Below are positions 9,790 to 63,668 of a stretch of DNA of 64,000 nucleotides, piece after piece. The notes under the pieces were generated by a model. It did no database searches. It saw only the letters and a program-made list of their open reading frames with translations, and was not told the DNA's origin. Positions within the stretch are counted from its first letter, which is position 1, and the number at the start of each line of letters is the position of its first letter. Source of the DNA: Halomonas sp. I5-271120 (GTDB lineage: Bacteria; Pseudomonadota; Gammaproteobacteria; Pseudomonadales; Halomonadaceae). The DNA is taken from the NCBI RefSeq assembly GCF_030553075.1, contig NZ_CP130701.1, forward strand, positions 3,596,001-3,660,000, given 5' to 3'. A program made the position numbers and the translations under genes.

Positions 9790-10413
9790 ATGAATGACGT
9801 AACCCTCGGGCCGCCGCACTGGCAGGCCCTTCTCGACTCGCCGCCGTTGTCGCTGGGACTTGGCCTGTTTGGCCTCACGCGTGCTAACGAGCTGCTGCTG
9901 CAACTGGATCAGCAACTGCACTGGCAGCGGCCCACCCTCACCCTTTACGGCCGCCAACACCTCATCCCCCGCCGCCAGATCTGGATGGGCGATCCGGACG
10001 CCGCCTATCGCTATTCCGGCGAGGCGTTTACTCCCACGCCCTGGCACCCGGCGGTTGAGGAGATCAGGCTCGCCGTTGAACGGGCCCTGGAAGCCACCGG
10101 ACAGCCCGCAAGCTTCAACAGTGTGCTACTCAATCGCTACGCCGATGGCGAGGATCGCATGGGCTGGCACAGCGATGACGAGACGGAACTCGGCAATGAC
10201 CCCTTGATCGCCGCGGTGAGCCTCGGTACCGAACGACCGCTGCGTTTTCGCTGGCAGAACCGCCACGCGGCTGCCTTCAATGTCTGGCTACCCCATGACA
10301 GCCTGCTGGTGATGGGACCGGGCACCCAGCGCCAGCTGCAACATGCCCTGCTGCCACGAAAGCTGCCCGGCATGCGTATCAGCCTGACCTTCCGTCGCGT
10401 CTATCCGCGCTAG
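9790..10413 (+). CDS. AlkB-type 2-oxoglutarate/Fe(II) dioxygenase
   Basis: 207 aa. The iron ligands H127-x-D129 and H185 are visible, and the 2-oxoglutarate-binding R196...R202 pattern (RISLTFR) closes the fold. The N-L-Y-G-like segment TLYGRQH, followed by NSVLLNRYADG, resembles the ABH2/ABH3-like bacterial AlkB homologs rather than E. coli AlkB. It should remove alkyl groups such as 1-methyladenine from DNA or RNA by oxidative demethylation. It stands alone, without an ada gene nearby, converging on the yhhJ-rbbA-yhiI operon. Confidence 0.88.
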   Translation: MNDVTLGPPHWQALLDSPPLSLGLGLFGLTRANELLLQLDQQLHWQRPTLTLYGRQHLIPRRQIWMGDPDAAYRYSGEAFTPTPWHPAVEEIRLAVERALEATGQPASFNSVLLNRYADGEDRMGWHSDDETELGNDPLIAAVSLGTERPLRFRWQNRHAAAFNVWLPHDSLLVMGPGTQRQLQHALLPRKLPGMRISLTFRRVYPR

Positions 10414-48812: not shown

Positions 48813-51236
48813 ATGATCCTCACCCTCAACCAGCTGGAACGGCATCTGTTCAAGGCGGCCGACATCCTGCGTGGTCGCATGGACGCCTCGGAGTTCAAGG
48901 AATACATCTTCGGCATGCTGTTCCTGAAGCGCTGCTCGGATGTCTTCGAGGAGCGTCAGGAGGAAGTCCGCGAGCAACTGCGCCAGGCCGGCAAGAGCGA
49001 GGTAGACATCGCTCACGTCATCGAGATGACGAGCTGGTACAAGTCCACCTTCTACGTACCCGAGCAGGCACGCTGGGGGTACCTGCTCAAGGAAGCCCAC
49101 CAGGGCGTCGGCAATGCGCTGAACAAGGCGCTGGCGGGTCTGGAAGAGCACAACCCAAGCCTCGCCGGGGTACTGGAGCACATCGACTTCACCCGCAAGG
49201 TGGGCTCCACCACCCTGCCGGACAAGAAGCTACGCGACCTGATCGTCCACTTCAGCGAGTACCGGCTGCGCAACGAGGACTTCGAGTTCCCCGACCTGCT
49301 GGGTGCCGCCTACGAGTACCTGATCCGCGACTTCGCCGACTCGGCCGGCAAGAAGGGCGGCGAGTTCTACACCCCGCGCCCGGTGGTCCGCATGATGGTG
49401 CGGCTGATGGCGCCCGATGAAGGCCACAGCGTCTACGATCCCTGCATGGGCTCGGGCGGTATGCTGATCCACGCCAAGGAATACCTGGAAGAGCAAGGCG
49501 GCGACCCGCGTCGGCTCTCGGTGTTCGGCCAGGAGGCCTCGGGCTCGGTGTGGGCCATCGCCAAGATGAACATGCTTCTTCACGGCATCAGCAGTGCCGA
49601 CCTGCGCAACGACGACACCCTAACCGATCCACAGCATGTCGAAGGCGGCGAGCTGATGCGCTTCGACCGCATCCTCACCAACCCACCCTTTTCCATTGGC
49701 TTCACTCCCAGCCAGCAGTTTCCGGAGCGCTTCCACTACGGCCAGGTACCGGAAGGCGCCAAGAAGGCCGACCTGATGTTCCTGCAGCACATGGTCGCGA
49801 GCCTCAAAGCCGATGGCATGCTGGCCACCGTCATGCCCCACGGCGTGCTGTTCCGCGGCGGCGACGAGAAGCGCATCCGCGCCGGCCTGCTGGAAGACGA
49901 CCTGGTGGAGGCGGTGATCGGCCTGGCCCCCAACCTCTTCTACGGTACCGGCATCCCGGCCAGCATCCTGGTGCTGCGCGGTAAGGGCGCCAAGCCCGCC
50001 GAGCGCCAGGGCAAGGTGCTGTTCATCAACGCCGACCGTGAATACTACGAGGGGCGCGCCCAGAACTACCTGCTGCCGGAGCATATCGAGAAGATCGCCA
50101 GCACCTTCGAGTCCTTCTCGGAGGTGCCCGGCTTCGCCCGTGCCGTGCCGCTTTCGGAGCTACGCGAGAACAACTACAACCTCAACATCCGCCGCTACGC
50201 CGACAACACCCCGCCGCCGGAACCTCAGGACGTACGCGCCCACCTCAAGGGCGGCGTACCGGTGGCCGAGATCGACGCCAGGCGCCCACTATTCAACGCC
50301 CAGGGCCTCGACCCCATGGCGCTGTTCATGCCTCGGGCGAACGACGCCGACTATGTGGACTTCGCCGAGCGGCTTGAAGAGAAACGCGACCTCAAGCCCG
50401 CCATCGAGAGCGACGCCGGCCTGAGCGATAAGGAAGCCCGCGCAATGGCCGCCTTCGAGGCCTGGTGGGCCGAGCACGGCGCCAGCATCACCACCCTTTC
50501 CGGCAACGACGGCCGCCTGACTCAACTGCGCGACGAGCTGCTGGGCAGCTTCACCGCGGCCCTCGAACCCCTGGCCATGCTCGACCGCTTCGCAGTGCGC
50601 GGCATCATTGCCGGCTTCTGGTTCGACAACAAGAACGAGTTCCGCACACTGCAGGCCCGTGGTTGCCTGGGCGTGGTGGACGCCTGGCGCACCTCGATCA
50701 ATAGCCTGTTGGAGGATGAGCAGAGCAAGGCCAATCCGCTGGATCACCGCTTGGTGCACTTCCTGCTCGAGGACTATGTGGCCGAGCTGGAGGAACTCGC
50801 CGCCCGCAAGGCGGAGCTGGACGCCCGGATCAAGGCCGCCGAGGCCAAACCGGAGAGCGACGACAGCGACGACGCGGAAGCCCAGAGCGACGAGGACGAC
50901 GACGCCCCCACCGAGGTTGAGGTCAAGGCCTGGAAGAAGGAACGCACCCAGGTGCGCAAAGCGCACAAGGCCAAGGTAGCGAACTTCGAGACGCGCCTGA
51001 ACCAGGCCGTGGACACCCTAGACGAACCCGCCGCCGCCGAACTGGTGGGTGACATTCTGCACAACGATCTTAAGGGCATTCTCGAGCGTTATATCCGCCA
51101 GCAGCGCCAGCAGGTGATCGCCGCCTTCGAGGCCTGGTGGGACAAGTACCGGGTGACGCTGGCCAACATCGAAGACGAGCGCGACGCCGCCGCCCGAGAG
51201 CTGCAGCAGTATCTGGAGGGGCTGGGGTATGTCTGA
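48813..51236 (+). CDS. hsdM: Type I restriction-modification DNA methyltransferase subunit
   Basis: 807 aa. An HsdM N-terminal helical domain (about 1-130) leads to an N6-adenine methyltransferase domain with the AdoMet motif [10 protein letters not shown] (209-218) and catalytic NPPF (290-293). It methylates adenine at the site chosen by HsdS and protects host DNA. The C-terminal third (about 470-807) is much longer than in E. coli EcoKI and contains an acidic run at about 681-700 followed by a basic coiled-coil stretch. AGGAAA precedes the ATG. It overlaps hsdS by 8 bases. Confidence 0.93.
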
Positions 51237-52497
51237 GTGGAAATCACTCCAACTTGGCGATCACACCGAGGTCCTTTCTGGCTTCCCCTTTCCATCAGAA
51301 GGCTTTTCACAGGAAGACGGCGTGCCCCTCATCAGAATCAGGGACCTCCTTGCCGGCGAACTTGAAACATACTTTATCGGACCTTATCCCGATGATTTTG
51401 TCATTCATGATGGTGACATCCTTATCGGGATGGATGGCGACTTCAACATCGTTCGCTGGGCCAAGGGGAAAGCACTACTAAACCAGCGGGTATGCAAGGT
51501 TTTTACGTCCACTGCCGAATTGGATGACGGGTACCTCTTCTGGCTCCTCGAGCCCGAGCTTCAGGATATTCACCAGAAAACTCCTCAGACGACCGTCAAA
51601 CACTTATCAGTCAGGGATCTGGCCCAGCTTCGAATTGAAGCCCCTCCGGTCAATGAGCAGCGGCTCATCGCCCGCATCCTCGACACCATCGACGTCCAGA
51701 TCCAGAAGACCGAAGCGCTGATCGCCAAGCTGGAGAAGGTCAAGGAGGGGCTGCTCCACGACCTGCTGACCCGCGGCATCGACGAGAACGGCCAGCTCCG
51801 CCCCAGCCCCGAGCAAGCGCCGGAGATCTACAAGGAGTCGCCGCTGGGGTTGATTCCGAGGGAGTGGAGCGTTAGCTCGGCTGAAGAAGAGTTTGAGATC
51901 ACAAGCGGGATAACGCTCGGCGCCCACCGTCGTCCCAATAAGAGCCCAACTCCGTACCTGCGTGTAGCGAATGTCCATCGTGACCAGCTATTGCTCGATG
52001 AAATTGCATTACTTGAGATGACCCCAGCAGAGCTGGATGCCAGATCATTACTCTTAGGTGATCTCCTAATAGTAGAAGGTCATGCCAACCCCAATGAGAT
52101 TGGCCGGTGTGCAAAAGTAACTTCAGAAGCTGCCGGGCTGACCTTCCAGAACCATCTATTTAGGCTCAGAGCCAATGATCTGTTGCCGGGCTTTACATCT
52201 CTATGGATGAACTCGAATTTCGTCAGAAGCTACTGGAGAGCAACTTGCTCCACCAGCTCAGGACTCTACACCATAAATCGCACCCAGCTTAGCCGTGTCC
52301 CAGTAGCAAAGCCGTCAAGGTTTGAGCAAGAGTTCATTTGTTCGGAATACGACAAAATTCAAATATGGCTAAAAACTGAGGCTGGCCAGCTCGCGAAACT
52401 GCAGCTTCAAAAACAGGGGCTAATGGACGACCTCCTCACGGGCCGCGTACGCGTCACCCCGCTTCTCGGAAAAGACCAGGCCACTACCCCGGCATAG
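51229..52497 (+). CDS. hsdS: Type I restriction-modification specificity subunit
   Basis: 422 aa. Two target-recognition domains (about 1-140 and 205-370) are separated by a helical spacer ([21 protein letters not shown]) and closed by a second, [20 protein letters not shown]. It sets the DNA sequence recognised by the M2S or R2M2S complex. The start ATG lies inside hsdM (ATGTCTGA overlap). Its recognition domains are lower in GC than the neighbouring conserved spacers, as expected for swapped specificity segments. Confidence 0.92.
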
Positions 52498-52551: not shown

Positions 52552-54390
52552 ATGACCACCTTCGATAGCACCAAGCGCTCGCTGCCCGAGCTGCTCAAGG
52601 ACATCACCAACGGCAAGATTCAGCTGCCCGACTTCCAGCGCGGCTGGGTGTGGGACGACGATCACGTGAAGAGCCTGCTGGTCAGCATCGCTCGCTCCTT
52701 CCCGGTGGGCGCGGTGATGCTGATGGAAACCGGCGGCGAGGTGCGCTTCCAGACCCGCCCGGTGGAGGGCATCGATCCGAACAGCGTCACCAACGACCCG
52801 GACCATTTGATCCTCGACGGCCAGCAGCGCCTCACCAGCCTGACCCAGGCAGTCGGCCTGACCTCTCCGGTGAATACCCGCACCGCCAAGGGCAAGAAGA
52901 TCCGGCGCCACTACTACTTCGACATTCGCACGGCGCTGGAAGGCGAGGATCGCCTGGAGGAAGCCGTGGTGGCGGTGGACGTCAACCGCCAGACCCACAA
53001 GAACTTCGGCCGCGAGGTGGACCGGGACCTCTCCACCCGACAGCTGGAGTGCGAGCAGCTGCTCTTCCCCTGCGACAAGATCCTCGATCCCTCCGATTGG
53101 CTGCAGGATCTATTCCGTTATAACCAGGAGGCCATGGGGGATTTCCTGGAGTTCCAGAAGAAGATCCTCGGCGCCTTCTCCGCCTACCAGCTGCCGGTGA
53201 TCGAGCTGAAGAAGGAGACCTCCAAGGAGGCGGTCTGCCTGGTGTTCGAGAAGGTGAATACCGGCGGCGTGCAGCTCTCGGTGTTCGAGCTGATCACTGC
53301 AAGCTATGCCGCCGAGGGCTACAACCTGCGCGACGACTGGTTCGGCTCCGACATCCGCAAGGTGCCCTCGCGCAAGGCCCGCCTCGAGAATCACGAGCTG
53401 CTGGCAGATGTCGAGAGCACCGACTTGCTCCAGGCCATCACCCTGCTGCATACCCATGAGCGCAAGCATCAGGACCTACTGGACGGTAAGACTGGCAAGC
53501 AGGTGCGCCCGGTCAGCGCCAAGCGTGCCTCGGTTCTCGACTTGCCGCTAGAGGCCTACCAGCGCTGGGCCGATGCCGTGGAGAAGGGTTTCATCGAGGC
53601 CGCCTACTTCCTGAAGGGTGAGTGTTTCTACAGCCGCCGCGAGATGCCCTACGCCACCCAGCTGGTGCCTCTGGCGGCGGTGATGACCCTGCTGGGCGAT
53701 CGCTGGCGCGAACCTCGCATCCACGCCAAGCTCACGCGCTGGTTCTGGAGCGGCGTGCTGGGTGAGCTCTACGGCGGCGCCGTCGAGACCCGCATCGCCC
53801 TGGACCTGGAAGAGCTAATGGTGTGGTTCAAGAACGACAGCGAGCTGCCGCGCACCGTGATCGACGCCTCCTTCGATCCCTCCCGCCTCGAGACCCTGCG
53901 CAGCCGAAACAGCGCCGCCTACAAGGGCATCAACGTGTTGATCCTGCGTGAAGGGGCCAACGACTTCTTCTGGAAGGGCGATATTCAGGAACTGGATAAA
54001 CAGGACGTAGCGCTGGATATTCACCACATCTTCCCGCGTGCCTGGTGCGAGGATCAGGGGCTGTCCTACCGCGTCTACGACGCCATCATCAACAAGACGC
54101 CGATCTCCGCCCGCACCAACCGCATGATCGGGGGTGACGCGCCCTCGGCGTACCTGGCCCGCCTGCAGGACCATAAGCAGGTCCAGCTCGATGACGCGGC
54201 GATGGATGCCATCCTCGAAGGCCACCGCATCCCCACCGAGGCCCTGCGCGCCGATGACTTCAACGCCTTCTACCAGCAGCGCAAGCAGCGCCTGCTCGAG
54301 ATCATCGAGAAGGCCATGGGCAAGAAACCATTGGCAGGGGCGGATGAAGAAGCACCAGTCGCTGCGGATAGTGAGGCACAGACGATCTGA
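52552..54390 (+). CDS. DUF262 plus HNH-type protein, GmrSD/BrxU-like
   Basis: 612 aa. The N-terminal DUF262 domain has LPDFQRGWVWDDDHV (about 24-38) and the nucleotide-binding D89-G-Q-Q-R-L94. The C-terminus has L-D-I-H-H-I-F-P (488-495) followed by a conserved N514 and N524-R, the pattern of the GmrD/DUF1524 His-Me finger nuclease. GmrSD-type enzymes cut DNA with modified bases using NTP hydrolysis. The gene lies 55 bp after hsdS on the same strand. A role as a type IV-like enzyme against phages with modified DNA is inferred. Confidence 0.82.
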   Translation: MTTFDSTKRSLPELLKDITNGKIQLPDFQRGWVWDDDHVKSLLVSIARSFPVGAVMLMETGGEVRFQTRPVEGIDPNSVTNDPDHLILDGQQRLTSLTQAVGLTSPVNTRTAKGKKIRRHYYFDIRTALEGEDRLEEAVVAVDVNRQTHKNFGREVDRDLSTRQLECEQLLFPCDKILDPSDWLQDLFRYNQEAMGDFLEFQKKILGAFSAYQLPVIELKKETSKEAVCLVFEKVNTGGVQLSVFELITASYAAEGYNLRDDWFGSDIRKVPSRKARLENHELLADVESTDLLQAITLLHTHERKHQDLLDGKTGKQVRPVSAKRASVLDLPLEAYQRWADAVEKGFIEAAYFLKGECFYSRREMPYATQLVPLAAVMTLLGDRWREPRIHAKLTRWFWSGVLGELYGGAVETRIALDLEELMVWFKNDSELPRTVIDASFDPSRLETLRSRNSAAYKGINVLILREGANDFFWKGDIQELDKQDVALDIHHIFPRAWCEDQGLSYRVYDAIINKTPISARTNRMIGGDAPSAYLARLQDHKQVQLDDAAMDAILEGHRIPTEALRADDFNAFYQQRKQRLLEIIEKAMGKKPLAGADEEAPVAADSEAQTI

Positions 54391-54482: not shown

Positions 54483-55046
54483 ATGAGTGAATATATGGTC
54501 ATCGGGATCGGTGGCGCCGGCCTTCAGCTGGCCTGGCAAGCGCACAGGCTAATGGGCGGTGGCTTCCTGGCCATCAATACCGATGAGGAACCCCTCGCGT
54601 CATTACCGCAGGATCAGCAGCTGGTCATAGGCCCGCAATGCTGCGGCGGCAAAGATGCATCGTCACCGGCGCGGGGCCGCCTAGCCGCGGAGGAGTCGCT
54701 AGCAGACATCAGGGCGCTTCTTCCCCACAGCGGGAAGGTGGTGCTGATGGCCGGGTTGGGTGGTGGCGCTGGTACAGGCGCTCTGACCATCGTGGCCAAT
54801 GAAGTCATCCAGCGAGGGCTTGAGCCGCTCATCTCCGTGACTCTGCCCTTTCGGCTCGAAACTGAACGGCGAGAAGAGGCCTTGGCCGCCTTGAAGGAAC
54901 TGAAGGCAACCGGGGCCGACATCATTACTCACGATCACGCACAGCAACACTTGAACTCGATGGCTCTCGAGTCAGTCTTGCAGACCAGTGCAACGGAGCT
55001 TGCAAGGCGTTCACACGCCTGGATAAAGGGAGAAACAGATGATTGA
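54483..55046 (+). CDS. Stand-alone FtsZ/tubulin-type GTPase domain
   Basis: 187 aa aligned with the N-terminal half of FtsZ in order: G8-I-G-G-A-G13 (first loop), A-I-N32-T-D34, a segment IGP...SSPARGRLAAEES (49-72) matching the FtsZ GANPxxGRxAAEES loop, the tubulin signature G93-G-G-A-G-T-G99 (FtsZ GGGTGTG), and LPFRLETERR (121-130). The base-binding PND-like segment is replaced by THD (149-151). It stops before the T7 catalytic loop and the whole C-terminal domain of FtsZ. It may bind GTP but lacks the parts needed for canonical filament GTP hydrolysis. GAGGG precedes the ATG. It overlaps the next nuclease gene by 8 bases. Confidence 0.82.
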   Translation: MSEYMVIGIGGAGLQLAWQAHRLMGGGFLAINTDEEPLASLPQDQQLVIGPQCCGGKDASSPARGRLAAEESLADIRALLPHSGKVVLMAGLGGGAGTGALTIVANEVIQRGLEPLISVTLPFRLETERREEALAALKELKATGADIITHDHAQQHLNSMALESVLQTSATELARRSHAWIKGETDD

Positions 55047-56280
55047 TGAGACGCTGATCAGCGATGACCTCATGGAAATGGTCGGCCAGGCCCGTGAACG
55101 AGCGAACCAGAGGGGAGAGCGCTTCAACATCTTCTCGATTCTCAAGGTCCACCGTGACGAGGCCGAAACCCACTCACGCTTTCTGCATGAGCTACTGAAC
55201 CCGCAGGGTCGTCACGGCGAAGGCAGTGCCTTTCTGGACCTGTTCCTCGATGGTGTGCTGGGTATCCCAAGCCACGGGGGGCAACACTTTCGGGTGCGCC
55301 GTGAACTGCCCACTGCGGAAAAGCGTCGAGTCGATATGGTCATCGAGTCACCGACCGACATTATCGGGGTCGAGTTGAAGATCGATGCGGCAGACCAGAA
55401 TGCCCAGCTGCATGACTACTATCACGAGCTGCAACGTCGTGCGGAGGGAAGAAAGACCGTCACCCTGGCGTATCTGACCCTAGGGGGAAAGCGGCCATCG
55501 ACCATGAGCCTCAAGGAGTTGAGCGAGGACGATGTGGTCTGCCTGTCGTTCGCGCATCACATCGCAGGCTGGTTGCAGAAATGCATCGATCGCAGCCATC
55601 ACAAGCCGGAGTTAGCGCATGCCATCCAGCAGTATCTTCAATTGATTCGTAACCTGACAGGGAAGGGAGGAACGATGAACGATCTGGTAGCCGGTGAGCT
55701 GAAGGGGGATATGGAACGATTCCAGGAGGCCCTGGAAGTCGAGAAATCCCTTCCCAAGGCCAAGGCCTCTATCCAGGAGGTGTTCTGGAAAGAACTGAGC
55801 GATGCCCTGACGGATGAATTTGGCGTCACGCCGACCGTCTACGGTGGCAAGAATATCAGGGCCATTTCCTCGGACTACTACTCGAAGAACAAAAACAACA
55901 AGCATATCGGGTTCAAGTTGCCGATCGGCGAGGTGGGTAGCAAGGCTGTGTGCCTGTATACCAACCTCTACCATGCCGTTCATTATGGCCTCAGGGTGGA
56001 AGATGAGGCTGGCACTGTTGTCGCAGCCGGGAGCCTGCGAGACGCCTTCCGAGAGCAATGGGGTAAAGGCAATGCTGTGGCAGACAACCATGCTGACTGG
56101 CTGGTCTGTTACTACTTCAACCCGGAGGCAGGCGATGACGAAAAGATCATCAATTTTGACTCATTCAATACTGCTGCCGTAGGCCTGCTGGACGACGAGA
56201 TACGCCGCACACTGATTGCCGATATTGTGGCGCACCAAGTGGAGCTGGCTGAAAAAGCCAAAAAGTTGTGTAGCCAGTAA
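55039..56280 (+). CDS. PD-(D/E)XK nuclease (PDDEXK_4 type)
   Basis: 413 aa. The N-terminal segment NIFSILKVHRDEAETHSRFL (about 30-49) followed by LLNPQGRHGEG and FLDLFL is the family mark, and the catalytic core is D99...E112-L-K114 in a beta-hairpin (RRVDMVIES...GVELKI). A helical C-terminal domain (about 200-413) is of unknown role. It is predicted to cut DNA, or possibly RNA. Its ATG is inside the FtsZ-like gene (ATGATTGA overlap), so the two are translated together. No helicase is fused. Confidence 0.82.
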   Translation: MIDETLISDDLMEMVGQARERANQRGERFNIFSILKVHRDEAETHSRFLHELLNPQGRHGEGSAFLDLFLDGVLGIPSHGGQHFRVRRELPTAEKRRVDMVIESPTDIIGVELKIDAADQNAQLHDYYHELQRRAEGRKTVTLAYLTLGGKRPSTMSLKELSEDDVVCLSFAHHIAGWLQKCIDRSHHKPELAHAIQQYLQLIRNLTGKGGTMNDLVAGELKGDMERFQEALEVEKSLPKAKASIQEVFWKELSDALTDEFGVTPTVYGGKNIRAISSDYYSKNKNNKHIGFKLPIGEVGSKAVCLYTNLYHAVHYGLRVEDEAGTVVAAGSLRDAFREQWGKGNAVADNHADWLVCYYFNPEAGDDEKIINFDSFNTAAVGLLDDEIRRTLIADIVAHQVELAEKAKKLCSQ

Positions 56281-56297: not shown

Positions 56298-57479
56298 ATG
56301 CCAACCTACGGAAATATCCTTCTCAGACAGGACGAGAGCGGCGGCTTCGAGACGGCTCGCAAGGTGCAGCTGGGCTTTACCGACGGCCGCAACGAAGCCT
56401 GGCTGCGCGACCTGCTGGCCGAGCACCCCGACCTGCTGCCGATCGAAGAAGTCGATCCCTCTTTCGCGCCCCTGGTGCCTCTCTGCACCGAGCTACAGAC
56501 CGAAGCCGGGCCGGTGGATGCGGCCTTCATCAGCCCATCGGGCCGGCTCACGCTGGTGGAGTGCAAGCTCTGGCGCAACCCTGAGGCTCGTCGCAAGGTC
56601 ATCGCGCAGATCCTCGACTACGCCCGCGCGGTTTCGCGCTGGAGCTACGCGGACCTCCAGCGGCAAGTGGCCGCGGCAACTGGTCGGAAAGGAAACGCCC
56701 CCTTCGAGGCCGCCCGTGAGCTGCAGCCGGACCTGGATGAGGCCGCCTTCGTGGACGCCGCAGCGCGTGCCCTGCGTGAGGGCCGGTTCCTGCTATTGAT
56801 CGCTGGTGACGGCATTCGCGAGGGCACCAGCGGCATGGCCGAGCTGATCACCCGCAACGCCGCCATGGGGTTCAGCTTCGGGCTGGTGGAAGTCGCCCTC
56901 TACGAGTTCGGTGACCAGGGCCTGGTGGTCCAGCCGAGGGTAGTCGCCAAGACAGAGACCATAGAACGCACTTTCGTTCATGTTCAATCAGGTGACAGCG
57001 GCTCGCTGCACGACATCAGCGACGAAGGCGAAGCTGAGAGTGGCGGCGAGTCCGTCGCGGTAGCCAACGAGCGTGCCTGGTGGGAACCCCTCACCCGCCT
57101 CAGCTTCGATGACCCGGAGCAGGAATCACCGCTCTACCGGCCCCGCAACCACGTCAGGGTGCAACTGCCCTACCCCGGCATCTGGATCACCGCCTACCGC
57201 TCCATGGGAGAGGGTATCTGCGGCGTGTTTCTGACCGGCAAGAAGTCGGAGATCCCGCAGGTACTCGATGTCCTCAATGAAGAGCGGGAGCACATTCTCG
57301 GGGAGTTGCCACATGGCACAAGCGAGCGCCAGCAAAGCGCCCCCGACAGATCAGGGTTCGCGAGCTACGCTCGACTCAATGAGTTCGCAACAGATGACGA
57401 ATGCCGGAACTGGCTGGCACAGCAGCTCAATCACTTCGTCAACGCTTTCAGGCCGCGGCTGAAGGCGATGGCCAAGTGA
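56298..57479 (+). CDS. PD-(D/E)XK-like endonuclease domain protein
   Basis: 393 aa. The core D74...E88-C-K90 with the following KLWRNPEARRKVIAQILDYA (about 90-109) is a restriction endonuclease-like motif, similar to predicted nucleases found in defence loci. A C-terminal domain (about 290-393) lacks recognisable motifs. It starts 17 bp after the PDDEXK_4 gene with GGAAG ahead of the ATG and so belongs to the same transcript. It could act with the FtsZ-like/PDDEXK_4 pair or on its own; nothing in it marks a partner. Confidence 0.7.
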   Translation: MPTYGNILLRQDESGGFETARKVQLGFTDGRNEAWLRDLLAEHPDLLPIEEVDPSFAPLVPLCTELQTEAGPVDAAFISPSGRLTLVECKLWRNPEARRKVIAQILDYARAVSRWSYADLQRQVAAATGRKGNAPFEAARELQPDLDEAAFVDAAARALREGRFLLLIAGDGIREGTSGMAELITRNAAMGFSFGLVEVALYEFGDQGLVVQPRVVAKTETIERTFVHVQSGDSGSLHDISDEGEAESGGESVAVANERAWWEPLTRLSFDDPEQESPLYRPRNHVRVQLPYPGIWITAYRSMGEGICGVFLTGKKSEIPQVLDVLNEEREHILGELPHGTSERQQSAPDRSGFASYARLNEFATDDECRNWLAQQLNHFVNAFRPRLKAMAK

Positions 57480-57630: not shown

Positions 57631-58245
57631 ATGAACCGATATCGTGCCACGGGATTGCAGGGTAGCGCTGAGCCTGGTTCACACGGCCGTGTGATGGCCA
57701 ACAAGATCGGGCTTACCGATCAAGAGAGCCTGGACGAAGCCGAGGCCGAGCTTTTGTTCAAGCTCTATGCGGAGGTGTTCGAGTCATTGGAAGAGGACCA
57801 GCCTCTCGATGTTGCCTTACTGAAGCAGTGGCACCGCCGTTGGCTTGGTAGTCTCTATGACTGGGCCGGTGAAGAGCGACAGGTCAATCTGGAGAAGGAT
57901 GGCTTCCCTTTCGCGGCGGCTGCACAGCTCCCCCCTTTGCTGCGGGATTTGGATAAGAAATGGCTGAGCCAACTGACACCTTGCAATGACATGAGCCAGG
58001 AGGAAACGATACGCGCTATTGCCCAAGTGCATGTCGAACTGATCTTGGTGCACCCATTCCGGGAGGGCAACGGCCGCATCGCCCGCCTTCTGGCAGACGC
58101 CATGGCCTTCCAGTCTGGACTAGGACTACTGGATTATGACGACTGGAGTAAGAACAAGGCGTCCTATATCGGCGCAATCCACACCGGGCTGGCAGGCGAC
58201 TACGAACCGATGGTGGAGCGGGTCAGGCGAGCGGTAGGGACTTAA
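57631..58245 (+). CDS. fic: Fic domain protein
   Basis: 204 aa. The full motif H141-P-F-R-E-G-N-G-R-I-A-R152 is intact, so AMP transfer to a protein hydroxyl is possible. No auto-inhibitory helix with (S/T)xxxE(G/N) is evident near the ends. A separate antitoxin gene on the same strand is not found, but a small antisense gene overlaps its 3' end. It is 151 bp from the preceding nuclease gene and may have its own promoter. Fic genes inside hsd loci are seen elsewhere, with unknown roles. Confidence 0.88.
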   Translation: MNRYRATGLQGSAEPGSHGRVMANKIGLTDQESLDEAEAELLFKLYAEVFESLEEDQPLDVALLKQWHRRWLGSLYDWAGEERQVNLEKDGFPFAAAAQLPPLLRDLDKKWLSQLTPCNDMSQEETIRAIAQVHVELILVHPFREGNGRIARLLADAMAFQSGLGLLDYDDWSKNKASYIGAIHTGLAGDYEPMVERVRRAVGT

Positions 58246-58387
58246 AGCGGGACTTGCCAGAACGCAGTTTCACCTCAATGGCATGACTGGGCTTACCTGT
58301 TTCCACGGCTGTGGATGTGGAAACGGCCTTCAGCAAGGCCTTGCGGCCCACTGTGCGACGTTTCTTGAGCGCTGTCGAAGCTGTCAT
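58223..58387 (-). CDS. Candidate small basic protein antisense to the fic 3' end
   Basis: 54 aa, beginning MTASTALKKRR, with a basic N-terminus and a C-terminus SGKSRFKSLPLA. GAGGAGGG lies just before the ATG, which is a very good ribosome-binding site, and the frame is in sequence that codes for nothing else except its last 23 bases inside fic. The middle has S25-T-A-V-E29-T-G, close to but not matching the (S/T)xxxE(G/N) helix of Fic antitoxins. It might be an antitoxin or an unrelated regulator. I do not recognise its family. Confidence 0.4.
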   Translation of the reverse strand: MTASTALKKRRTVGRKALLKAVSTSTAVETGKPSHAIEVKLRSGKSRFKSLPLA

Positions 58388-58510
58388 GGGTGCCCTCCTC
58401 ATCAGATAAGTATCATTTTACGCGCTTTCCCAAGAACCTGCATTCAGGTTACTACGATAAAGGGCATTCGCTACCATCGAAGAACTTACATCAACCTTTG
58501 GAGCCATGGC

Positions 58511-61500
58511 ATGGCAGGACCCGAGTACACGGACGTAGAGAAGCCTTTCATCGATCAGCTAGTCGGTCAGGGTTGGAAATACATCGCCGGTTCGCTGGAT
58601 GACCCGGCAGTGACTCATCGAGAGAGCTTCGCTAAGGTCGTGATGGAGCCGATCCTGCGCCAGCGGCTCCGCGCCATCAACCTGCACCATGGAGAGCATT
58701 GGCTGGACGAAAGGCGGCTGGATCAGGCGGTATCGGCCATCACGCGCCTGCCGGCCAGCAAGGTCATGGAGGCCAACAAGCTGGCCACCGAGCTTTTGGT
58801 CGGTGGCCTGACCGTCGAGGGCCTGGAGGGCTGGGACGGTGGCCGCGGCCAGACACTGCGGTTCATCGATTGGGACACGCCGACCAACAACACCTTCACG
58901 GTGGTCAACCAGTTCAAGGTGAAGTGTCCGCCGGGCCACGACTCGGCCAAGGGCCATGTGATCCCTGACCTGGTGTTGTTCGTCAACGGCATCCCGCTGG
59001 TGGTGGTGGAGTGCAAGAGCCGCACCGTGCCGGAGGGCATACCCGAGGCGGTGGATCAGCTGCGTCGCTACCATGACCAGCGCCATCTGGATTTCGAGGT
59101 GGAAGAGCATGAGGGCGCCCCGGCTCTATTCGCGACCAGTCAGTTCCTGGTGGCCAGCAACTTCGATGAGGCCCGAGTCGGCACCATCGGCGCAGGCTTC
59201 TCCCACTACCTGAGCTGGAAAACGGTCGCCCCGAGACGGGAAGCCGAGGTGGCCATCGATCTGGGCGTGGCGGATCTCTCGGCGCAGCAGCGCCTGGTGG
59301 CCGGCATGCTCACCCAGACCCACCTGCTCGACATCGTGCGTCACTACACCCTGTTCATGAACCCAGGTGGCCAGGACATCAAGCTGGTGTGCCGCTACCC
59401 GCAGTTTCGCGGCGTGACACGCGCCATCGAACGGCTGAAGACCGGCAAGACGCGCCACGAGGACGGCGAGGCCGATCGACGCGGCGGCATCGTCTGGCAC
59501 ACGCAAGGCAGTGGCAAAAGCCTCTCCATGGTGTTCCTGGTGCGCAAGCTGCGTACCGATCCCGAACTGCGTCGCTTCAAGGTAGTGGTCATCACCGACC
59601 GCAAGGACCTCCAGGCCCAGCTGTCGGCCACCGCAGAATTGACCGGCGAAAGCGTCGAGAAGGCGAGCCACACCGCAAGCCTGAAGAAGCTGCTGGCGCG
59701 GGAAGGCCCTGGCCTGGTCTTTGGCACTATTCAGAAATACCGCGACCCAGATACCGACGAACCCGCCGGCAAGCGCGAAGAGTCAACGACAGACGAGTAT
59801 CACGGCAAGGAGCATGAACTGGACAGCGGCCGGCGCGATGCAGCAGAGCCTAGCCGCCTGGACAAGACGCCGAAGAAGCCGAGCCTGAGAGCACCCTTCG
59901 AGGTGCTCAACACCAGTGAGGACATCCTGATCCTGGTGGACGAGGCGCATCGCACCCAGGCTGGCGACCTGCACGCCAATATGCTGCGCGCCCTACCCAA
60001 CGCCGCCCGCATCGGTTTCACCGGCACGCCCATCATAATGGGTGACAAGAAACGCACCCACGACATTTTCGGCGAGTACATCGACCGCTACACCATCAAG
60101 GAAGCGGAACAGGATGGTGCCACGGTGCCGATCCTCTATGAAGGCCGCACCGCCAAGGGAGCCATCAAGGAGGGCGCCAGCCTCGATGGCCTCTTCGAGG
60201 ACCTGTTCCGCGAGCACACCAAGGACGAGCTGGAGGCCATCAGGAAGAAGTACGCCACCAAGGGGCAGATATTCGAAGCCCCTCAGCTCATCCAGGAGAA
60301 GGCCCAGGACATCCTTCGCCACTACGTCACCCACATCCTACCCAATGGTTACAAGGCGCAGCTGGTAGCCTATAGCCGCCGGGCGGCCATGCGTTACTTC
60401 GAGGCCCTCGAGTCGGCCAAGGCAGCGCTGCTCGCGGAAGCCGAGGCGCTTTCTCCGCAAGACAAGGCGCTCGATGACACTCAGCTGCTCACGCGGCCAC
60501 CGCGGATCAAGGCCGCCATTCAGGCCTGGCGCTATCGCGATGTGCTGCAGCAGCTGGAGTTCGCCGTGGTGTTCAGCAGCGGCAATAATGATGATTCTGC
60601 CTGGGCCAAGTGGAGTGATCGCGGCGCCGTCGAGAGCCATATCAAGCGCTTCAAGAAGCCGCTTACCCATGAAGACCCGCAGAAGGCCGATCCGCTGGCC
60701 TTTCTCATTGTCAAGTCGATGCTGCTCACCGGCTTCGATGCGCCCATCGAGGGCGTGATGTACCTGGATCGCTCCATCCGCGAGGCAGAGCTGCTGCAGG
60801 CCATCGCGCGCGTGAATCGCACCGGTCACGGCAAGACGCACGGCATGGTGGTGGACTACTTCGGCGTGGCCAACCACCTCAAGGAGGCGCTGGCCGCTTA
60901 CAGCGAGGAGGACATCGACGGCGCCCTGCGCAGCCTCAAGGATGAGATACCCCTGCTGCGTGACCGCCATTTGCGGGTCATCGACGTGCTGCGTAGCCAG
61001 GGGATAGATAGCCTGACTGACAGCGAAGAGGCAGTGAAGGTGCTGGCCGACGAGCGCCTGCGGGCCGAGTTCGTGGTCAAGCTCAAGGAGTTCAACCAGA
61101 CCCTAGATGACGTATTGCCCCGCCCGGAGGGACTGGAGTTCGTCAACGATGCCAAGCAGCTCGCCTACATACACGCCCTGGCCCGCAACCGCTACAAGGA
61201 TTCCCTCAACCTAGGCAAGGACACCGGCAGCAAGGTGCGCAAACTCATCGACGACTATGTGATTTCGCTGGGGATCGACCCGCGCATCCCGCCTATACAG
61301 CTCACCGATGCAGACTTCGATGAGTACATGGACCGCCAGGTGGGCGAACGGGCCAAGGCCTCCGAGATGGAGCATGCCATCCGCTCCCATGTGCGAAAGC
61401 ACCTGGACGAAGACCCGGTGAAGTACAGTCGTCTTAGTGAGCGCCTGGAAGAACTGCTCCAGCAACTCGACGGCCAGTGGGATGAACAGGTCGAAGCGCT

Positions 61501-61873
61501 CAGGGGACTAATCCAGCAACTGCGAGACGGCGCCAACGTGGGGGGCGAGGCGATCCCCGACATGCCGGCCCACGCTGAGCCCTTCTGGCGCGAGCTGGTG
61601 GCCAGCAGCGGCCTGGAGGCCGATCAAGTGGATGCCGATACCGCCAAAAAGCTACTGGAAGCAACCGAGGAGGTGGTTGGCCTAATCCAGCAGGAGATCG
61701 CCATTCCCGACTTCTGGAAGCCCTCGCATGTTGCCGACCAGGAGGCACTGAAGGGACGGCTGTTTGAAGAGCTGTTCACCAAGAACCTGGTGCCGATCAC
61801 CGAGGTGGAAGCTCTCGCGCATCGTCTCTTCGACCTGGCCCGCAGCAACCATGAGAGACTGGTGAACGCATGA
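58511..61873 (+). CDS. hsdR: Type I restriction endonuclease motor subunit
   Basis: 1120 aa. An N-terminal PD-(D/E)XK nuclease (D153...E167-C-K169) is joined to an SF2 helicase/translocase with Walker A T331-Q-G-S-G-K-S337 and D477-E-A-H480, then helicase motif VI-like ARVNRTG and a C-terminal helical assembly domain. It translocates DNA toward the bound complex and cuts non-methylated DNA. The ATG at 58511 has GGAG seven bases upstream; a longer open frame from 58283 has no support. It closes the R-M set five genes away from hsdMS and overlaps the next gene by 4 bases. Confidence 0.93.
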   Translation: MAGPEYTDVEKPFIDQLVGQGWKYIAGSLDDPAVTHRESFAKVVMEPILRQRLRAINLHHGEHWLDERRLDQAVSAITRLPASKVMEANKLATELLVGGLTVEGLEGWDGGRGQTLRFIDWDTPTNNTFTVVNQFKVKCPPGHDSAKGHVIPDLVLFVNGIPLVVVECKSRTVPEGIPEAVDQLRRYHDQRHLDFEVEEHEGAPALFATSQFLVASNFDEARVGTIGAGFSHYLSWKTVAPRREAEVAIDLGVADLSAQQRLVAGMLTQTHLLDIVRHYTLFMNPGGQDIKLVCRYPQFRGVTRAIERLKTGKTRHEDGEADRRGGIVWHTQGSGKSLSMVFLVRKLRTDPELRRFKVVVITDRKDLQAQLSATAELTGESVEKASHTASLKKLLAREGPGLVFGTIQKYRDPDTDEPAGKREESTTDEYHGKEHELDSGRRDAAEPSRLDKTPKKPSLRAPFEVLNTSEDILILVDEAHRTQAGDLHANMLRALPNAARIGFTGTPIIMGDKKRTHDIFGEYIDRYTIKEAEQDGATVPILYEGRTAKGAIKEGASLDGLFEDLFREHTKDELEAIRKKYATKGQIFEAPQLIQEKAQDILRHYVTHILPNGYKAQLVAYSRRAAMRYFEALESAKAALLAEAEALSPQDKALDDTQLLTRPPRIKAAIQAWRYRDVLQQLEFAVVFSSGNNDDSAWAKWSDRGAVESHIKRFKKPLTHEDPQKADPLAFLIVKSMLLTGFDAPIEGVMYLDRSIREAELLQAIARVNRTGHGKTHGMVVDYFGVANHLKEALAAYSEEDIDGALRSLKDEIPLLRDRHLRVIDVLRSQGIDSLTDSEEAVKVLADERLRAEFVVKLKEFNQTLDDVLPRPEGLEFVNDAKQLAYIHALARNRYKDSLNLGKDTGSKVRKLIDDYVISLGIDPRIPPIQLTDADFDEYMDRQVGERAKASEMEHAIRSHVRKHLDEDPVKYSRLSERLEELLQQLDGQWDEQVEALRGLIQQLRDGANVGGEAIPDMPAHAEPFWRELVASSGLEADQVDADTAKKLLEATEEVVGLIQQEIAIPDFWKPSHVADQEALKGRLFEELFTKNLVPITEVEALAHRLFDLARSNHERLVNA

Positions 61874-62571
61874 GCCGGCTAGTAGTGGGCGACTTGGCTT
61901 TCGAAGTCCGCGAGAGCGCCCGGCGCAAGACGCTGGAGATTACCGTGGACCGTGACGGCGAACTGATCATCGCCACCCCCAAGGGCACCGATGCGCAGCT
62001 ACTGCACGATTTTGTGGCCGAGAAACGCTACTGGATCTACCAGAAGCTGGCGCAGAAGGCCGAGAGCCAACGCCGGCTGCCGCGGAAGGAGTTCGTCAAC
62101 GGCGAAGGCTTCCTCTATCTAGGTCGCAGCTACCGACTCAAGCGGATCGCGTCAGACGATCAGGAGGCCCCACTCAAGCTGGTCGCCGGCCGCTTCCAGC
62201 TGCGCGAAGATGCACTCACCGATGCCAGAGCGCACTTCATCCGCTGGTACAGCGATCGCGCCAGCGCCTGGCTCACGGCCTGGGTGAAGGAGCACGCCCA
62301 GCGTATGGGGGTGGAACCCACCGGCGTGAAGGTGCAGGACCTCGGCTACCGCTGGGGCTCCTGTGGCAAGGGCAACCGAGTCTATTTTCACTGGAAGACC
62401 ATCCTGCTGCCACGCCATATCGCCGAGTATGTGGTCGTCCACGAGCTGGTCCACCTAATGGAGCCCCACCACACACCCGCCTTTTGGCGCCTTATGGAGC
62501 GGGCCATGTCGGACTATGAGCAGCGCAAGGCCTGGCTGGCCCGGCATGGCATCGAGGTGGAGGGAGTTTGA
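61870..62571 (+). CDS. YgjP-like (DUF45) metallopeptidase
   Basis: 233 aa. The C-terminus has WGSCGKGNRVYFHW, then H191-E-L-V-H195 and a third possible zinc ligand at H201 in the HHTPAFW segment, as in YgjP/SprT-like M48-type peptidases. The start ATG overlaps the hsdR stop (ATGA), the arrangement seen in many type I restriction loci with a DUF45 gene. The role is not established; HsdR control by proteolysis, as ClpXP does in E. coli, is one possibility. It is the last gene before the IS element. Confidence 0.85.
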   Translation: MSRLVVGDLAFEVRESARRKTLEITVDRDGELIIATPKGTDAQLLHDFVAEKRYWIYQKLAQKAESQRRLPRKEFVNGEGFLYLGRSYRLKRIASDDQEAPLKLVAGRFQLREDALTDARAHFIRWYSDRASAWLTAWVKEHAQRMGVEPTGVKVQDLGYRWGSCGKGNRVYFHWKTILLPRHIAEYVVVHELVHLMEPHHTPAFWRLMERAMSDYEQRKAWLARHGIEVEGV

Positions 62572-62636: not shown

Positions 62637-63668
62637 TTAAAACCCTGCTGCCTGTGGCACCGGGTCCCTCTCGGGGTTCAGGTGCACTACCTCTGGCAGG
62701 CTGAGTTTCCGGATGTCACCCGACCAGCGCTTCGGGTGACGTTGCTTCGCCGCCTCGAAGACCTCTCGGCGCTGCGCCAAGATGCCTTTGGCCTCGCCGT
62801 TATGGCGCTGGCTCGGCGTGACGTAGCGAAGGGCGCTGTGACGGTGCTCGTGGTTGTACCACTCGGTAAATTGCTGAACCCAGTCCTGGGCCTCGGCTAG
62901 GGTGGCGAAACCGTCGGCGGGGAAGCCCGGCCGGTACTTCAGCGTCTTGAAGGCCGACTCGGCGAAGGCGTTGTCATTGCTGACCCTCGGCCGGTTGTAC
63001 GACGGGGTGATGCCCAAGTCGTAGAGCTTCTCCAGGAATGTTGCCGCCTTCATCGGACTGCCGTTATCTGAGTGCAGAATCAAGGGCTTGTGAAGATCGG
63101 TGAGGTGCTCTCGCCAGCAGGCCTTCTGGATCAGCTCAGCGGCCAGCTCACCGGTCTCCGTCTCGTAGACTTCGTGCCCAACGATCTTGCGGCTGAAGAC
63201 ATCCATGATCAGGTACAGGTACCACCAGGTGCCACGCGCGGGGCCGGGAAGCCACGAAATGTCCCAGCACCAAAGGCGGTTCGGCGCCGTGGCTTGATGC
63301 GTGGTCGGAGGGCGCTTGCGCTGTGGGGCCTGCTGGTGGCCCCGGTGATGTTGCTGGCCAACTTCATGAAGCACTCGGTACATCGTCGACTCAGAGGCCA
63401 GGTAGCAGCCCTTATCCGCTTGATCGGCCACGATGAAGGCCGGAGGGCGGCTCCGATACTCGGGGGCATTGCACAGCGCCACGATTGCCTCTCGCTCCTC
63501 GGGAGACAGCTTGTTGGCCGGCTCCGGACGGTCGGCATCGGGACGGCGATCAGCCGTCACCTCGCCCTCAGCGACCCAGCGGTAGTAGGTCCTTACGTTG
63601 ATGCCCATCACCTGACAGGCCTTGGCCAGCCGAGCACCGTCACGCTGGGCATCTTGCACCAGGGTCAC
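62637..63668 (-). CDS. IS3-family transposase OrfB
   Basis: 343 aa from a GTG at 63668. It has the rve integrase core with catalytic D in CWDISWLP, D in LILHSDNGSP and E in DNAFAESAFKTLK, plus an N-terminal helix-turn-helix segment. It most likely is made as an OrfAB fusion by -1 frameshifting, as its frame runs on upstream without a stop to the slippery site at 63737. As a stand-alone start, the GTG has no good ribosome-binding site. Confidence 0.9.
   Translation of the reverse strand: MTLVQDAQRDGARLAKACQVMGINVRTYYRWVAEGEVTADRRPDADRPEPANKLSPEEREAIVALCNAPEYRSRPPAFIVADQADKGCYLASESTMYRVLHEVGQQHHRGHQQAPQRKRPPTTHQATAPNRLWCWDISWLPGPARGTWWYLYLIMDVFSRKIVGHEVYETETGELAAELIQKACWREHLTDLHKPLILHSDNGSPMKAATFLEKLYDLGITPSYNRPRVSNDNAFAESAFKTLKYRPGFPADGFATLAEAQDWVQQFTEWYNHEHRHSALRYVTPSQRHNGEAKGILAQRREVFEAAKQRHPKRWSGDIRKLSLPEVVHLNPERDPVPQAAGF

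Follow-up and report, generated by a model that had tools for sequence, protein, structure and literature searches.

FtsZs, a solo FtsZ GTPase-domain protein encoded beside a PDDEXK_4 nuclease in a type I restriction-modification operon of Halomonas

Halomonas sp. I5-271120 carries, in the stretch of 64,000 nucleotides analysed here (contig NZ_CP130701.1, positions 3,596,001 to 3,660,000; hereafter the window), a gene for a protein of 187 amino acids (aa) that ends with the GTPase domain of FtsZ; the protein is named FtsZs here. A preliminary description called it truncated, which is wrong: FtsZs is a complete domain, of near-constant length across an apparently undescribed family of solo FtsZ proteins that lack the filament-building and GTP-cutting parts of FtsZ. 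Its gene lies in a type I restriction-modification (R-M) operon, ahead of the gene for a PDDEXK_4 nuclease (PDX4). Because FtsZs is hardly able to hydrolyse nucleotide or polymerise in the manner of FtsZ, and because its gene overlaps and travels with that of the nuclease, it is best read as the nuclease's regulatory subunit. The specific reading that we prefer, and hold tentatively, is that FtsZs may serve the nuclease as a switch that binds nucleotide and does not polymerise, in a placement like that of PrrC.

FtsZs is a complete FtsZ N-domain

The FtsZs gene (54483..55046, forward strand) encodes an FtsZ-like series of motifs: T1 GIGGAG, T2 NTD, a GR-AAEES loop, and T4 GLGGGAGTG. The series had been noticed by eye in the preliminary description, and searches place the likeness far above chance. 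FtsZs matches Pfam PF00091 at 61.6 bits (E 1.6e-16; cut-off 33) and thus belongs to the GTPase-domain family; it matches TIGR00065 (ftsZ) over residues 5-148 at E 1e-21, with 77.7 bits against an equivalog cut-off of 295.2, and so falls outside the equivalog. FtsZ chains in the PDB match from E 2.6e-18, profile-profile comparison with an FtsZ alignment gives E 8.9e-29, and identity to FtsZ is about 30-34%. The predicted structure is confident and complete, and its fold over residues 2-184 is that of the FtsZ N-domain rather than an unrelated one. The chain stops after H7; the C-terminal domain (PF12327) and the tail are absent, and PF00091 is the only Pfam family above cut-off. The early remark that the T7 loop and C-terminal domain are missing is thereby borne out, by the predicted fold and by the census below. 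The host's own ftsZ, one of two PF00091 matches in the genome, sits elsewhere (G000 C1:2838492; open frame of 402 aa), in agreement with the view that FtsZs is not the cell's FtsZ.

A separate solo FtsZ family

A single-sequence search with FtsZs returned 16 short relatives (P0001-P0016, P0001 being the window's own) and then longer FtsZ-like proteins; a profile search added many more, with 363 proteins at E <=1e-15, the best 120 of which were sorted. Residues were compared, in Ec numbering, between 53 solo rows (the window protein and 52 clusters) and 16 FtsZ sequences. The census includes four fragments (P0012, P0063, P0094, and P0096) and leaves out P0001, in which the window protein is called 4 residues shorter; P0106 and P0147 are short, yet group with FtsZ in the tree and are not counted as solo.

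Most census rows (46/53) are 183-199 aa long. The GGG of T4 is present in 53/53, and the equivalents of Ec E138 and R142 in 51/53 each. T3 is one residue shorter, with glycine G71 missing, in 52/53 rows, and the Ec N73 position is S, T or A in every row. T6 is of an HD[HL] type: H at Ec163 in 46/53, D at Ec164 in 51/53, and H or L at Ec165 in 50/53. The synergy-loop positions of T7 (Ec N207, D209, and D212) are empty in all 53 solo rows, whereas of the 16 FtsZ rows 15, 15, and 14 carry N, D, and D, respectively. FtsZs shows all the features that define the solo family, namely PF00091 alone, an end after H7, the T3 deletion, the HD[HL]-type T6, and monophyly.

Trees were built with FastTree (local supports) from 77 rows and later from 70 rows. 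The 77-row tree leaves out P0012, P0021, P0043, and P0057, and P0058 and P0059 (<=200 aa) were not collected; the 70-row tree, a chosen subset of the profile-search matches, is also without P0060 and P0026-P0056 and represents the solo family by 31 of the 53 census rows plus the proteins of Halomonas salipaludis and Ectothiorhodospira mobilis. These 33 solo rows form one clade (support 0.998), and in the earlier tree clade A, the clade found in the R-M operon, groups together with P0016 (17 rows in all; support 0.968). The solo clade branches apart from both the gammaproteobacterial FtsZ of the host and the full-length second FtsZ that some relatives carry; a recent copy of host FtsZ is rejected by both trees. 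Among longer sequences, the one closest to the solo clade is a divergent ftsZ from an Anaerobiospirillum metagenome-assembled genome (L003; support 0.907). Two tandem divergent ftsZ genes stand there (L003 118-2177), followed by an lpxC-like gene, named by eye. Second, full-length, divergent FtsZ proteins (open frames of about 380-464 aa) occur besides the normal one in 9 of 275 genomes of the window's family (L015-L023). Among the FtsZ-like proteins P0017-P0056, many are about 282 aa long and several are named Thermoplasmata; they have PF00091 but no precomputed PF12327, and may have replaced the C-terminal domain.

It is scarcely credible that FtsZs is a relic, a functionless and decaying ftsZ fragment. 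The gene is rare and missing from sister operons, and the E. mobilis copy has changed motifs, as a relic might; set against this are the near-constant length, the family-wide residue changes, the monophyly outside host FtsZ, the confident and complete predicted fold, and, for three pairs, dN/dS values of 0.15-0.24, though two of these pairs have dS close to saturation. The conserved family refutes the relic in the main. A broken ftsZ is likewise ruled out by near-constant length, monophyly, and low dN/dS, and neither the search for relatives nor the trees make FtsZs a frame-truncated piece of a longer ftsZ.

The nucleotide pocket has lost its base-reading side

Ec186, which we take to be the base-reading position of H7, is D or N in 0/53 solo rows and in 16/16 FtsZ sequences, and the T6 asparagine (Ec N165) is N in 1/53 against 16/16. 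The adjacent Ec187 is less telling (E in 13/53 solo rows; D or E in 16/16 FtsZ). The hhalign alignment shifts T6 by two residues but still pairs N165 with a histidine, so that the asparagine is gone either way. In FtsZ, the available part of the source describes N165 as contacting the guanine base, H7 as the main element of base recognition, T4 as contacting the phosphates, and T5 the ribose (PMC8456036). With the Asn of N165 and the Asp/Asn of Ec186 replaced, the base-reading side of the pocket is, judged from the alignments, lost in the solo family; the phosphate and ribose side is kept in outline, as the T1, T2, T4, and T5 motifs. The proposal of the preliminary description that FtsZs is a GTP sensor thus survives in part: a nucleotide sensor is plausible, but "GTP" does not stand because the guanine-reading positions are changed in nearly the whole family.

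The half of FtsZ that remains also bears on the idea of an FtsZ antagonist, in which the solo domain would dock on the exposed T7 end of host FtsZ filaments, cap them, and stall division during infection as an abortive or dormancy effector. Capping would be structurally natural since only the T7-receiving face remains: the predicted fold is the FtsZ N-domain with only its T7-complementary half kept, and the equivalent of Ec L178 is L in 49/53 solo rows. In the portion of the source at hand, FtsZ L178E becomes monomeric, Q47K is a monomeric mutant, and occupation of the synergy-loop face is the described action of Gp0.4, SulA, and MciZ (PMC13423816). We nevertheless consider capping unlikely, given that E, K or Q stands at the Ec Q47 equivalent in the 8 rows of the family that were compared, that T3 and N73 are altered as above, and that FtsZs has so low an identity to FtsZ. 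Moreover, the related clade B gene (see below) is present in 4/4 genomes of a genus, which would be odd for a division poison unless tightly regulated.

A decoy, the second suggestion of the preliminary description, is improbable. Phage FtsZ inhibitors, or phage PhuZ/FtsZ subunits, would bind the solo domain as bait and be sensed by the nuclease. A precedent is the CapRel-Ebc host defence, which senses a phage FtsZ inhibitor complexed with FtsZ (PMC13423816, as far as the text was available), and phage FtsZ/PhuZ models have a related fold. However, the inhibitors described in the same excerpt, T7 Gp0.4, SulA, and MciZ, bind the synergy-loop/C-terminal face, which is absent from FtsZs, and the decoy thereby loses its main support; FtsZs is also far from host FtsZ in sequence and in the tree, unlike a mimic.

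The FtsZs gene and a PDDEXK_4 nuclease gene form a pair within a type I R-M operon

Genes in the window follow the order HsdM, HsdS, DUF262, FtsZs, PDDEXK_4, ORF393, Fic, HsdR, YgjP, as listed here.

48813..51236, forward strand: HsdM, type I N6-adenine methyltransferase (PF02384 and PF12161; PADLOC MTase_I)
51229..52497, forward strand: HsdS specificity subunit (PF01420; PADLOC Specificity_I)
52552..54390, forward strand: DUF262/GmrSD_N protein, 612 aa (PF03235, 113.9 bits; weak HNH_4 PF13395, 13 bits, below the cut-off of 22)
54483..55046, forward strand: FtsZs, solo FtsZ GTPase-domain protein, 187 aa (ATG start)
55039..55046, forward strand: 8-base overlap of the FtsZs 3' end and the nuclease gene start, ATGATTGA (from the sequence)
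55039..56280, forward strand: PDX4, PDDEXK_4 nuclease, 413 aa, PADLOC candidate PDC-S26 (PF14281, 99.4 bits; PDC-S26, E 4.7e-81)
56298..57479, forward strand: ORF393, putative nuclease-like protein (no Pfam family at E 1; weak PADLOC PDC-S11, E 1.9e-6)
57631..58245, forward strand: Fic/DOC protein, PADLOC PDC-S04, in a variable slot before hsdR (PF02661; PDC-S04, E 4.3e-83)
58283..61873, forward strand: HsdR (HSDR_N PF04313, 136.5 bits; T1R_D3-like)
61870..62571, forward strand: YgjP-like metallopeptidase, last gene of the operon, found also in L068 and L071 (PF01863, 199.7 bits)

The presence of HsdM, HsdS, and HsdR in the same operon confirms the type I R-M setting given in the preliminary description. 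Its placement of the gene between a DUF262/HNH gene and a nuclease gene holds, with the DUF262/GmrSD_N gene upstream, its HNH_4 match being below cut-off, and the PDDEXK_4 gene downstream.

The overlap of the two genes suggests translational coupling. The order of the window recurs in H. salipaludis (L002) up to HsdR, with a PIN/HTH pair replacing Fic; there, taking the homologous ATG as the nuclease start, the two genes overlap by 11 bases. PDX4 clears the PF14281 cut-off (22.3) by far, and D99, E112, and K114 are invariant in 30 aligned homologues, the D...ExK pattern of a PD-(D/E)XK site that is, by these residues, intact. In its AlphaFold2 model (pLDDT 83.8, pTM 0.54) there is a further C-terminal part, of tentative fold.

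Recurrence of the short gene beside PDDEXK_4 genes, which the preliminary description had set out as a point to survey, is borne out by the synteny in H. salipaludis and by shared contigs. Eight of the 17 clade A clusters share a contig with a PDX4 cluster, where sharing means an identical longest-contig size in bases for both clusters (46993, 110563, 348207, 81368, 15224, 21406, 2092, and 7229 bases) and adjacency is established only on the 2092-base contig, of which the FtsZs and PDX4 genes occupy 1.83 kb. Carriers include H. saccharevitans, H. ventosae, H. tibetensis, and Thioalkalivibrio sp. ALE19. Among the nine clusters without a PDX4 match, four are on contigs <2 kb and one is E. mobilis, with the nuclease deleted; the other four (P0004, P0007, P0009, and P0015) lack a match on contigs of 4.7-8.8 kb.

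The two proteins also diverge together: FtsZs and PDX4 protein distances correlate over 10 pairs with r = 0.894, a value reached by 0 of 10,000 permutations. Between the window and L002, dS is 1.57 for FtsZs and 1.22 for PDX4, as against 0.41 for HsdM, 0.44 for DUF262, 0.76 for ORF393, and 0.69 for HsdR; the GC content at third codon positions (GC3) is 0.66 and 0.68 for the pair, compared with 0.87 for HsdM and DUF262. These contrasts suggest that FtsZs and PDX4 form a block with its own history.

Other parts of the operon vary. ORF393 is kept, by synteny, in L002, L068, and L071 and is absent from L069. Between sister operons HsdS has dS values of 1.3-3.1 (near saturation), compared with 0.2-1.0 for HsdM, a silent-site divergence that may reflect exchange of target specificity. 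The slot before hsdR, occupied by Fic in the window (57631-58245) and by an opposite-strand PIN/HTH pair in H. salipaludis (L002 13014-14047), would be an exchangeable toxin-antitoxin-like position. An rve-domain transposase gene (62637-63668, minus strand) abuts the end of the operon.

Clade B stands behind SPFH-NfeD genes

Among 198 genomes of family f21 (taken for Pseudomonadaceae), a profile that includes the second clade of the solo family, clade B, finds this clade in four, and these are 4/4 available genomes of genus g557; the genus may be Thiopseudomonas, the database name of a related clade B protein (P0075) being Thiopseudomonas sp. In all four genomes (L110 9146-11301, L111, L112, and L113) the solo gene stands directly behind, and in the same direction as, SPFH/Band 7 and NfeD genes; the Pfam scan for SPFH and NfeD was made on two of the four loci, and the SPFH gene of L111 is partly N. 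The SPFH-NfeD pair of 4/4 sampled genomes from other f21 genera has no solo FtsZ, by tblastn, within 2.5-2.9 kb downstream. The window's own genome also has an SPFH gene, a more distant one. The link to restriction is therefore not general among solo FtsZ domains: the restriction-island setting of the preliminary description holds for clade A, in its type I R-M operon, but the gene is not confined to R-M loci.

FtsZs is rare and can be lost or left behind

The solo gene occurs in 2 of 275 genomes of the window's family (its own and G023), in 1 of 390 drawn from its order, in 2 of 369 drawn from its class (its own and G965), and in 1 of 47 of the order of G965; a pattern scan of genome contigs gave 10 relatives, two of them solo (L001 and L002). 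A close PDX4 (>=66% identity) is present in 6/275 genomes of the family. Four PDX4 genomes lack FtsZs, three with the same operon (L068, L069, and L071) and one (L070) with PDX4 but none of the other operon genes. In L069 and L071 the bases ahead of the PDX4 start still encode the C-terminus of FtsZs, as a mini-ORF some 25 codons long that lies after DUF262 and before the nuclease; FtsZs has thus been deleted there, leaving its end with the translation start of the nuclease, and this scar is probably kept for nuclease translation. The bases before PDX4 in L068 hold no FtsZs scar.

The reverse case is E. mobilis (L001 9702-12694), where deletion has left a remnant of the R-M operon; only the solo ftsZ still reads open over its length. 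What remains of HsdM are its first 17 codons and of DUF262 its first 25; ORF393 persists as roughly its last 88 residues and HsdR in pieces, and the remnant gives no nuclease match. Conserved motifs of this FtsZs are changed (GGAG to GGAS and RGR to RGS).

A phage or plasmid origin of FtsZs was considered and rejected: at E 1e-3, tblastn of the window protein has no match among 72,556 plasmid records or 50,697 phage records. Viral contigs gave no relative for query A1 or for P0091, P0092, P0095, and P0098, and plasmid records give no match for P0098 at E 1e-10 or P0092 at E 1e-15. Query A3 finds one full-length FtsZ-like phage protein in viral contigs (L089; a 314-residue frame with the T7 region). 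It lies at about 10001-10408 of an IMG/VR phage contig, and several unannotated gut phage records match too. The clade B protein P0064 matches 53 plasmid-collection records (best 20 of 53 inspected) and, weakly, 12 phage-collection records, all at <60% identity; the features named among the matches listed are FtsZ.

A possible switch for the nuclease

In the switch reading, an FtsZ/tubulin-fold domain cut loose from polymerisation would serve as a small switch or licensing subunit, its partner being the PDDEXK_4 nuclease with which it would be inherited as a cassette of overlapping genes inside the R-M operon. FtsZs would bind nucleotide through T1, T2, T4, and T5 and, because the T7 catalytic loop is missing, would not hydrolyse it alone. 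Its bound or free state would alter physical contact with the nuclease or the R-M complex, so that the nuclease could be held latent, or released on a change in the nucleotide pool or a disturbance of R-M during phage infection. Such control would modulate rather than enable the nuclease, which also exists without FtsZs. A wider proposal is more doubtful: a portable family of tubulin-fold sensors, probably re-tuned to a non-GTP ligand, that would gate PDDEXK_4 as a two-gene defence module in a type I R-M operon of halophilic gammaproteobacteria and would serve an SPFH-NfeD membrane module in a Pseudomonadaceae-type genus.

Several observations weigh against a nuclease switch. Nucleotide binding is not assured, because parts of the phosphate side are altered: besides the short T3, the T4 threonine (Ec T108) is A or V in 19/53 solo rows, the following glycine (Ec G109) is A in 30/53, and NTD has become NTN (Ec D45 = N) in 30/53. 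The nuclease does not need FtsZs, since the sister operons L068, L069, and L071, and L070 outside the operon, carry homologues 66-73% identical without it; conversely, FtsZs outlasts the deleted nuclease in E. mobilis, and four clade B stretches of 7-19 kb give no match to PDX4 or DUF262. Co-divergence of the pair may arise from linkage alone. As for a separate history of the block, the dS contrast is weak between the window and L068 (PDX4 1.39, DUF262 1.13), PDX4 alone is equally divergent between L002 and L069, from which FtsZs is lost (dS 0.85, compared with 0.14 for DUF262), HsdS dS exceeds that of the block, and low GC3 is also found in HsdS (0.62) and Fic (0.67).

An alternative is an independent accessory protein, with a job of its own (for example at the membrane) and associated with PDDEXK_4 only because type I R-M operons gather accessory genes. 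We judge this rather unlikely, and give it the weight that we do because of the nuclease without FtsZs, the FtsZs that outlives the nuclease, the changed phosphate loops, and the clade B neighbourhood. The SPFH-NfeD-solo FtsZ context, constant in 4/4 genomes, hints at the membrane; FtsZs is lost while PDX4 stays, with the scar kept, in G051 and G069, whereas E. mobilis has kept FtsZs and lost PDX4; and the accessory slots of the operon vary (Fic or PIN/HTH). It is opposed by the co-divergence of FtsZs and PDX4, their repeated co-occurrence, and the gene overlap.

Comparison with known systems

FtsZ and tubulin are seen as proteins that build filaments, in which the next subunit completes the GTPase of the one before. 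FtsZs resembles FtsZ (TIGR00065; PF00091 and PF12327) in the N-terminal GTPase fold, in T1, T2, T4, and T5 in outline, and in H7, but is without the T7 catalytic loop, the C-terminal domain, and the tail; the T6 Asn and H7 Asp/Asn are changed, T3 has a deletion, and no division cluster is near.

FtsZl1 and FtsZl2 (Makarova and Koonin 2010, PMC2875224) share a divergent FtsZ-type GTPase domain, and T6-H7 is unrecognisable in FtsZl1. As described in the available part of that paper, most members of FtsZl1 carry a helical C-terminal domain along with a long coiled coil, and FtsZl2 has about 300 further residues and the loops T1, T4, T6, and T7; FtsZs, which ends after H7 with its N-domain making up residues 2-184 of 187, is set apart from both by this description. 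PhuZ and TubZ are related in fold by viral models, but the ten viral model matches at E <=0.001 are proteins of 312-452 aa, longer than FtsZs. With the PHROG PhuZ family, a clade B member has a weak match (E 6.1e-6, residues 1-118) and the window protein matches 0 families at E 0.01.

The precedent in placement is PrrC of EcoprrI, an effector nuclease under nucleotide control that is held latent by its type I R-M setting, with a gene that lies, as that of PDX4 does, between hsdS and hsdR; in the accessible part of the account, PrrC is a single chain that joins a tRNase to an ABC-type NTPase, whereas here a tubulin fold and a PDDEXK fold are in two chains (PMC3014915). McrBC differs in another way, none of the operon proteins scanned with Pfam having matched an AAA+ family; McrB is a GTP-hydrolysing AAA+ ring. 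In PADLOC, the nuclease itself matches the single-gene PDDEXK_4 candidate PDC-S26, and the solo FtsZ matches 0 families at E 0.1. Among the open-licence papers listed for FtsZ with restriction or defence, judged by titles and the starts of abstracts, none gives a description of FtsZs or its pairing with the nuclease.

Within their known superfamily the solo proteins make up a new family, and its place is unexpected; FtsZ, FtsZl1/FtsZl2, and PhuZ/TubZ all carry the region after H7 or a counterpart of it. A conserved family that keeps only the nucleotide face would show that the tubulin fold can act as a plain molecular switch, and would tie it to DNA restriction; this one small protein makes it testable which nucleotide, if any, is read without guanine contacts, and whether the top face of FtsZ, by itself, controls a nuclease or caps FtsZ.
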